Positions 50,561 to 59,229 of a DNA stretch of 64,000 bases are shown piece after piece (the stretch's first letter is position 1; each line of letters opens with the position of its first letter). The translations under genes and the position numbers were made by a program. The stretch is from Bacteroidota bacterium (GTDB taxonomy: Bacteria; Bacteroidota; Ignavibacteria; Ignavibacteriales; Melioribacteraceae): NCBI GenBank assembly GCA_018829205.1, contig JAHJUE010000025.1, positions 1 to 64,000 on the forward strand. Reading direction: 5' to 3'. The notes beneath the pieces were generated by a model, which had not been told where the DNA came from, made no database searches, and saw only the letters and a program-made list of their open reading frames with translations.

Positions 50561-50645
50561 GCGAGAGTGGCGGAATTGGCAGACGCGCTAGACTTAGGAT
50601 CTAGTATCGCAAGGTGTGGGGGTTCGAGTCCCCCCTCTCGTACCA
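50561..50645 (+). tRNA. tRNA-Leu (anticodon UAG)
   Basis: The class II cloverleaf is complete: acceptor GCGAGAG pairs with CTCTCGT (one G-U), the anticodon loop CTTAGGA gives UAG, there is a long variable arm, and the T-loop is GGTTCGAGTC. The discriminator A and an encoded CCA end at 50645. It lies 31 bp before tig on the same strand. Confidence 0.97.
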
Positions 50646-58547: not shown

Positions 58548-58631
58548 GCCGGAGTGGCGGAATTGGTAGACGCGCATGACTCAAAATCATGTATCTGCAA
58601 GGATGTGCCGGTTCGAGTCCGGCCTTCGGTA
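58548..58631 (+). tRNA. tRNA-Leu (anticodon CAA)
   Basis: A class II tRNA. Acceptor GCCGGAG pairs with CTTCGGT (two G-U), the anticodon stem is CATGA/TCATG with loop CTCAAAA giving CAA, and the T-loop is GGTTCGAGTC. The CCA end is not encoded, unlike the UAG isoacceptor in this window. Bases 588-617 of this kilobase recur exactly at 58995-59024 beyond the GIY-YIG gene. A terminator follows at once. Confidence 0.96.
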
Positions 58632-58632
58632 C

Positions 58633-58665
58633 AAAAAGCCTGAAATATTCTTCAGGCTTTTTTTT
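58633..58665 (+). terminator. Intrinsic terminator after tRNA-Leu(CAA)
   Basis: Stem AAAAAGCCTGAA (58633-58644) pairs with TTCAGGCTTTTT (58651-58662), loop ATATTC, followed by more T. It starts one base after the discriminator base. The GIY-YIG gene begins right behind it with no visible promoter of its own. Confidence 0.9.
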
Positions 58666-58745
58666 AATATGTATTACGTTTACGCTATTTTTTAATATGT
58701 ATTACGTTTACGCTATTTTTTAATATGTATTACGTTTACGCTATT
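58666..58745 (+). repeat. 28-bp tandem triplication of the GIY-YIG gene start
   Basis: Copies start at 58666, 58694 and 58722 with an exact 28-bp period. Each carries an ATG (58669, 58697, 58725) followed by the codons for YYVYAI. Copies 1 and 2 run into TTT TAA and encode only MYYVYAIF; copy 3 opens the real gene. The unit includes a run of T like that of the preceding terminator. Because 28 is not a multiple of 3, the extra starts are out of frame with the gene. Confidence 0.95.
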
Positions 58746-58979
58746 AAAAGCATATCGAAAAATTATATCTATGTTGGAATGACTTCCAATCTTATAAAAC
58801 GTCTTGAATATCATAACAAAGGTTATGAAAAAACTACGAAACCTTACAGTCCTTTCAATCTTATTTTTACCGAATCTTTCGATAATAGAATTGATGCAAG
58901 AGTTAAAGAAAAATATCTTAAAAGCGGTATAGGAAAAGAATTTCTTAAAACTTTGTCAAACATACAATTTTATGAATAG
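58725..58979 (+). CDS. Small GIY-YIG nuclease (UPF0213/YhbQ-like)
   Basis: 84 residues, a single GIY-YIG domain. The GIY and YIG positions are YVY (3-5) and YVG (16-18). The catalytic Arg is R26 (IKRLEYHN), followed by H30 and N31, and the metal-binding Glu is E62 (VKEKYLKSGIGKEFL). These suffice for endonuclease activity; no DNA-recognition domain is attached. Relatives are common in Bacteroidota, where database entries often mislabel them as UvrC. The gene has no Shine-Dalgarno, sits 60 bp after a tRNA terminator and is bounded by tRNA-derived repeats. Its start is preceded by two decoy copies. Its target is unknown. Confidence 0.85.
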   Translation: MYYVYAIKSISKNYIYVGMTSNLIKRLEYHNKGYEKTTKPYSPFNLIFTESFDNRIDARVKEKYLKSGIGKEFLKTLSNIQFYE

Positions 58980-58994
58980 TTTTCAGATTATATA

Positions 58995-59024
58995 CATGTA
59001 TCTGCAAGGATGTGCCGGTTCGAG
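58995..59024 (+). pseudogene. tRNA-Leu(CAA) fragment (partial copy)
   Basis: Thirty bases are identical to the anticodon-stem to T-loop part of tRNA-Leu(CAA). Flanks diverge at once on both sides, although CCCTTCCGGTAA a little downstream (59039-59050) faintly recalls the tRNA's CCTTCGGTA end. It cannot fold into a tRNA. It is either an attachment-site copy or the decayed remnant of a second tRNA. Confidence 0.8.
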
Positions 59025-59229
59025 CTTACCATAATATGCCCTTCCGGTAAGTCTGGAATTAAGTACCACGTTCTGATAAAATATTTTGAATAATTGCTTT
59101 ATCGTTTTAAACCTTTTTTTGTACCAAGTACGTTTCAATTTTAAATATTGATATCGTAATTATATCTTGTAATGGACTAAATAATTATTAGTTTTTTAAT
59201 AAATGAGCCACAGAAATTTATTAATAAGT

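Follow-up and report, generated by a model that had tools for sequence, protein, structure and literature searches.

Why should a lone gene for a very small GIY-YIG nuclease lie between an intact tRNA-Leu gene and a second, partial copy of the same tRNA? The original prediction for this locus, made on the window (the whole stretch of 64,000 nucleotides that was analysed), described an exact 30-bp copy of the tRNA beyond the nuclease gene, at a period of 407 bp, and proposed a minimal selfish element. Our reading, to which we give roughly a two-in-three chance, is that of a minimal element driven by its GIY-YIG nuclease and seated in a tRNA gene: isotype-specific, homing-like in its predicted cutting and spread, and restoring the half of the tRNA that it enters. 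The features of the locus are as follows.

58548–58632, + strand: intact tRNA-Leu(CAA), the host gene of the element (ARAGORN; Rfam RF00005, 56.6 bits)
58588–58617, + strand: reference copy of the 30-bp repeat CATGTATCTGCAAGGATGTGCCGGTTCGAG, tRNA nucleotides 41–70, from the 3′ strand of the anticodon stem to the T-loop
58633–58668, + strand: terminator-like hairpin AGCCTGAA..TTCAGGCT with T8, plus leader, between the tRNA and the nuclease gene (read from the sequence)
58661–58745, + strand: 28-bp tandem repeat, three copies, of the start of the GIY-YIG gene ATGTATTACGTTTACGCTATT, with ATG at 58669, 58697 and 58725
58725–58979, + strand: gene for an 84-aa single-domain GIY-YIG nuclease, active-site residues intact (Pfam GIY-YIG, E 6e-15)
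58995–59024, + strand: psi-tRNA-Leu, exact second copy of the 30-bp repeat (tRNA nucleotides 41–70)
59025–59051, + strand: T-loop insert of the psi-tRNA with inverted ends CTTACC/GGTAAG, at the same place as the inserts of relatives
59052–59066, + strand: decayed 3′ end of the psi-tRNA, 10/15 identical to tRNA nucleotides 71–85 (tentative)

Both copies of the repeat fall where they had been predicted, and the repeat is the sole exact 30-mer in the 64-kb window that recurs within 1 kb; in a blastn comparison of the tRNA-Leu with its surroundings, the psi copy is recovered with an E value of about 1e-13. The earlier description of the copy as running from the anticodon stem to the T-loop stands for the 30 exact positions, but the copy does not plainly stop at the T-loop: an insert starts after its TTCGAG, with the decayed 3′ end beyond. 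The length of this insert is uncertain, since the alignment favoured by the program has an insert of 18 bp, with TCCGG after it, instead of the 27 positions listed above. The hairpin and T-run themselves occupy 58637–58665 and separate the tRNA from the nuclease gene, whose start is repeated three times in 28-bp steps, the copies being mutually out of frame in a pattern that resembles slippage. As had been claimed, no integrase-like gene is found among the ORFs around the locus, read by eye. A second tRNA-Leu gene in the window (anticodon TAG, 50561–50645) has no partial copy within about 1.5 kb.

The window protein belongs to the GIY-YIG superfamily by its Pfam match, its catalytic residues (Tyr, Tyr, Arg, Glu) and its fold. 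Y5, Y16, G18, R26, H30 and E62 are all present and are invariant in the family alignment (22 sequences), while the AlphaFold2 model (pLDDT 85) matches PDB structures of UPF0213, Slx1 and, weakly, the catalytic domain of I-TevI. Across the class, the nucleases are about 80–90 residues long and consist of a single domain, without a separate DNA-binding domain, and dN/dS values of mostly 0.05–0.3, between species as well as inside arrays, indicate purifying selection. The invariant residues, the dN/dS values and the predicted fold support an active nuclease under selection.

Association with tRNA genes and isotypes

The nuclease family had been expected to be enriched beside tRNA genes. In a PF01541 search of three complete genomes, 12/21 small GIY-YIG loci lie at most 200 bp from a tRNA gene (0.2 expected), all on the same strand. 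Another 8/21 lie more than 600 bp from any tRNA, one of them beside tmRNA, and the UvrC-size GIY-YIG proteins of these genomes are never near a tRNA, the six long ones being 3–47 kb away. This search above all, together with the others made outside the Leu-clade scan described below, provides the unbiased test of association. The genome of the window itself has eight PF01541 matches, and two further small GIY-YIG genes in it show a related anatomy: one lies between a broken tRNA-Arg 5′ half (an exact stretch of 27 bp and another 14 bp, with a palindrome between them) and an intact tRNA-Arg (L001), and the other is a nuclease pseudogene accompanied by an intact tRNA-Met and a degraded tRNA-Met copy (L008). 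A protein search of 58 relatives gives matches in 51, with most of the loci that were read adjoining a same-strand tRNA. In a phylum-wide HMM search, 198/296 sampled genomes have matches, up to 18 per genome, and 28/30 examined loci adjoin a same-strand tRNA, a fraction obtained with an HMM built largely from tRNA-adjacent genes; the isotypes at these loci are Asn, Ser, Arg, Leu, Gly, Cys, Met, Val, Pro and Asp.

Small GIY-YIG genes also lie directly 3′ of tmRNA (L063, L077 and, as a tandem pair, L073), and a few belong to other clades, some with flanking inverted repeats. At L061:1520-1810 (genome G048), a small GIY-YIG gene lies between the inverted repeats TTCACCCCGTCAAATA and TATTTGACGGGGTAA, within a reading frame similar to that of a four-helix-bundle (S23-type) gene.

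The diverse protein alignment A1 (22 proteins) was too variable for a wider scan, so the narrower Leu-clade alignment A2, a query that contains no RNA gene, was scanned against 84,980 species genomes; the resulting set of 80 loci is for this reason biased towards the Leu protein clade. A same-strand tRNA adjoins 71 of the 80, and at 69 it is tRNA-Leu, with anticodons CAA, TAA, CAG, GAG and TAG, so that the expected enrichment appears in this similarity scan as well as in the complete genomes. Some loci without an intact tRNA still keep pieces of tRNA-Leu. The hosts are Bacteroidota, Ignavibacteriota, Balneolota and several Patescibacteria lineages.

Other protein clades go with other isotypes or with tmRNA. 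On a tree of 150 proteins, we count 15 isotype changes versus 46 with shuffled labels, and 12 versus 31 without the loci of the Leu-clade scan, contrasts that are inflated by near-copies from arrays and drawn from few alignment columns (77). The Leu clade has an SH-aLRT support of 96 and contains Patescibacteria interleaved with Bacteroidota, on these 77 columns with many open forks. The association with isotype could partly reflect vertical descent, although the five Leu anticodons and the many phyla argue against this as its cause. With regard to mobile DNA, the window protein has no tblastn match at 1e-5 among 50,697 phage records, a plasmid origin finds no plasmid matches, PHROG gives only weak matches to homing endonucleases, and four IMG/VR contigs match, one of them beside tRNA-Arg.

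Layouts, broken tRNA copies and palindromes

We observe two layouts. In layout D, to which the window locus belongs, an intact tRNA is followed by the nuclease gene and a broken 3′ half, whereas in layout U, which is about as common, a broken 5′ half and the nuclease gene precede an intact tRNA. On the protein tree, the layout changes 22 times (40 with shuffled labels), and the two interchange often within one protein clade; copying of the cassette as a whole is therefore sometimes unfaithful. The same syntenic tRNA-Leu is found with U in some species and with D in others.

The original prediction proposed tRNA-derived repeats flanking the nuclease genes, and such repeats are found, with psi-tRNAs scoring above the 99th percentile of shuffled tRNAs in 105/111 testable cases. 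An insert of at least 8 bp is present in 88 of the 105 psi-tRNAs, mostly at the borders of the D-loop or the T-loop. The D-loop contains 53 of 106 inserts, against 25 expected under a uniform distribution, and the T-loop 26, against 12, and a further 11 or so that are scored as stem, at nucleotides 60–65, correspond to the 5′ border of the T-loop once a two-base alignment ambiguity is allowed. The inserts are strongly palindromic, with a self-complementarity of 0.57 versus 0.30 when shuffled and an MFE of −11 versus −5 kcal/mol, and the commonest palindrome, CCTGCCTGCCGGCAGGCAGG, is found in both Bacteroidota and Patescibacteria.

We rejected the idea that the palindromes are private to the element, since members of their family are found throughout the genomes of some hosts, both within hairpin loops and within reading frames. 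The palindrome occurs in about 1/7 genomes without the nuclease gene versus 28/51 with it, a difference that we regard as suggestive. In genome G048, reading frames at L207, L209 and L212 contain the dispersed palindrome in frame, giving ...GQN-LPAGRQG-LSSGVYFY..., while at L206 and L210 it occupies a hairpin loop in the order ATGCTGAA, palindrome, CTTGTTTCAGCAT, three times at L206 with a 121-bp period. Its position here suggests that hairpin loops are where it inserts.

In U layouts, the stop codon of the nuclease gene lies a median of 5 nt 5′ of the tRNA (at most 35 nt in 44/50), and the promoter-like motif TAnnTTTG is found upstream of the psi-tRNA in 14/44 versus upstream of the intact tRNA in 4/44. 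This short gap and the greater frequency of the motif before the psi-tRNA suggest that the original promoter now serves psi-tRNA, gene and tRNA together.

Arrays, empty sites and alternative explanations

Tandem arrays occur at 50/190 locus-strands, a count that includes some loci sampled more than once. Many of the loci read in relatives are tandem arrays with a psi-tRNA in each unit, and a single gene lies between the copies; in G046, five copies follow one another with a 450-bp period, the three that were compared differing only synonymously. At L066:1223-1625 (G035), four exact 31-bp 3′ fragments of tRNA-Val with a 124-bp period are followed by a degraded GIY-YIG gene. Altered tRNA-Ser copies in the arrays of L076 and L051 are still called tRNA genes by ARAGORN, and thus the tRNA annotation of these genomes may count broken ones.

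The identical units of such arrays, the observation that the degraded copy may be either flanking one and the amplification of tRNA-Tyr driven by phage SegB would all suit a segmental duplication of the tRNA by slippage or unequal crossing-over, in which tRNA–GIY-YIG arrays form, one tRNA copy degenerates and the nuclease gene, itself a bystander, is neutral or serves the host through tRNA-gene amplification as in SegB. The arrays, however, usually have one intact tRNA and broken copies, so that they grow without a rise in tRNA dose, and the nuclease tracks its isotype across phyla and five Leu anticodons. The glnS–tRNA-Leu(CAA) site, which is common to the relatives, also speaks against simple duplication. 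It is occupied in the window genome (G000), in G002 and in G010 (two copies); carries a degraded nuclease in G029 and G015; retains psi remnants and no nuclease in G025, G041, G037 and G023 (flanks read by eye); and is empty, with one tRNA and no psi-tRNA, in G013, G017, G022 and G032. Such a patchy distribution at one orthologous site, with empty sites that have a single tRNA and no nuclease, makes duplication an unlikely account.

Within genus g52, G056 has the order psi-tRNA, gene, tRNA-Ser(GGA), while in G053 and G057 the tRNA stands by itself; the promoter-like motif TATATTTG stands before the psi-tRNA in G056 and before the tRNA in G057. Empty sites in relatives, which the original prediction had anticipated, thus exist in two forms, as orthologous sites at which tRNA-Leu is present only once and as gene-free sites within one genus. 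The arrangement that would have told against it, two full tandem tRNA-Leu genes at this site, was not seen. Taken together, these sites look like the result of recurrent invasion and loss.

We also considered a nuclease that acts on RNA, residing within the tRNA precursor transcript and cutting or regulating its own tRNA, with the psi-tRNA as a decoy or processing signal. This would be consistent with the U layouts, in which the stop codon leaves little room for a promoter before the tRNA and TAnnTTTG is commoner before the psi-tRNA, with inserts at stem-loop borders that would leave the psi-tRNA arms folded, and with the use of tmRNA as a host. We nevertheless judge it quite improbable: the nearest folds are Slx1, UPF0213 and I-TevI, the GIY-YIG enzymes of known function cut DNA, to our knowledge, and RNA regulation leaves the arrays, fossils and empty sites unexplained. 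Lastly, a relic of a tyrosine-integrase island, with the 30-bp repeat as its att site and one cargo gene left after deletion, is rejected as highly implausible, for although tyrosine integrases act at the anticodon stem to T-loop region of tRNA genes and the direct repeat beside the tRNA spans just this region, the window locus has no integrase-like gene, about half of the cases lie upstream with 5′-half copies (an arrangement rare among tRNA islands), one and the same gene stands alone at more than 100 loci, and the copies hold internal palindromes with no clean run to the 3′ end of the tRNA.

A homing-like model and its relation to known systems

In the nuclease-driven reading that we prefer, a cassette of nuclease gene and replacement half-tRNA would enter a tRNA gene, the displaced half becoming the psi copy, and the host would retain one working tRNA because the cassette restores the missing half, a course of events that the DNA of both layouts suggests. 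The nuclease would recognise the tRNA gene of its own isotype and break the uninterrupted gene, and the element would be copied in during repair of the break, the simplest driver of its spread, with the tRNA and psi sequences of the donor as homology arms; the same breaks would account for tandem amplification. Where palindromes border the D- and T-loops of the psi-tRNA, they would destroy the target, and owing to them, deletion of the element by recombination would leave a dead tRNA. We infer cutting and repair-driven spread from the isotype specificity, the conserved catalytic residues, the purifying selection and the precedent of SegB.

As for a homing gene, empty alleles are found in relatives, with the tRNA as the presumed cutting target. 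The insertion does not interrupt this target: the intact tRNA is uninterrupted, and only the psi copy is interrupted. Simple immunity through an interrupted target fails for the intact neighbour tRNA, which would have to be spared by low expression or by some other kind of protection. Against the reading also speak the frequent exchange of U and D layouts, the small GIY-YIG genes that lie far from any tRNA and, in contrast to I-TevI, the absence of a separate DNA-binding domain. One possibility for the palindromes is that they shield the psi-tRNA and turn its recombination with the tRNA, and with it the loss of the element, into a lethal event; another is that they are dispersed palindromes of the ordinary kind, which persist only at redundant tRNA copies. 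A fuller scheme, which we put forward as possible though doubtful, is that of cross-phylum, isotype-specific, half-kilobase elements whose nuclease would cut at the D-/T-loop borders, carry a replacement half-tRNA that lets the host survive, and bring about its own homing as well as the entry of dispersed palindromes at the break; the psi-tRNA, with its palindrome, would then provide immunity and trap the element against being lost precisely.

By analogy, we place the nuclease-driven element among the free-standing homing nuclease genes, with cleavage, the activity that defines them, as its predicted activity. Its closest relative in mechanism is phage SegB. SegB of phage T6 cuts inside tRNA genes and amplifies the tRNA together with segB in tandem by recombination (PMC13096335), and the arrays here likewise are tandem amplifications of a nuclease and tRNA segment. 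SegB and the T4-like free-standing GIY-YIG homing endonucleases also share the position of their genes beside tRNA genes (PMC13096335), and the SegB motif RAWTSGAAC (PMC13096335) is, by our own reading, the reverse complement of the T-loop consensus GTTCSAWTY. SegB differs in that it comes from a phage and shows no preference among the many isotypes with which it is associated, and no half-tRNA duplication or loop palindromes are described for it (PMC13096335), whereas the elements here lie on bacterial chromosomes, encode single-domain proteins of 80–90 aa in isotype-tracking clades and carry psi half-tRNAs. The phage search at 1e-5 gave no sequence relation to SegB.

I-TevI and other intron-borne GIY-YIG homing endonucleases share the catalytic fold and residues and offer break-repair homing as a model, but the elements here have no intron, linker or DNA-binding domain, and their target gene is kept alive by the duplicated half rather than by splicing. 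Islands that integrate into tRNA genes by a tyrosine integrase similarly restore the lost half and have a partial copy at the far end; the present elements have no integrase, span 0.3–0.5 kb and restore the 5′ half as commonly as the 3′ half. The closest solved folds of the single domain, UPF0213/YhbQ-like GIY-YIG proteins and Slx1, are solitary proteins or repair enzymes with no known tie to tRNA genes. REP/RAYT and Rickettsia palindromic elements are likewise short palindromes, dispersed in the genome, that insert into reading frames and genes for structured RNAs, whereas the palindromes here lie at the D-/T-loop borders of psi-tRNAs, beside a GIY-YIG gene.

In agreement with the original suggestion that the class was undescribed, searches of the open-licence literature gave no account of GIY-YIG genes linked to tRNA genes in Bacteroidota, and a 2006 survey of GIY-YIG proteins mentions tRNA in other contexts only. 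What had been predicted did not include the psi-tRNA inserts, the tandem arrays, the isotype specificity or the mirror layout, in which the gene precedes the tRNA. These loci apparently represent a widespread and undescribed class of very small selfish elements. If so, the class would account for the crowding of small GIY-YIG genes around tRNA genes and would be a kind of mobile element close to the smallest size possible, with one domain and half a tRNA. It offers predicted isotype-specific tRNA-gene nucleases that are open to direct assay, a test bed for the entry of palindromic repeats into hairpin loops, and a natural case of an essential gene that is invaded yet alive.
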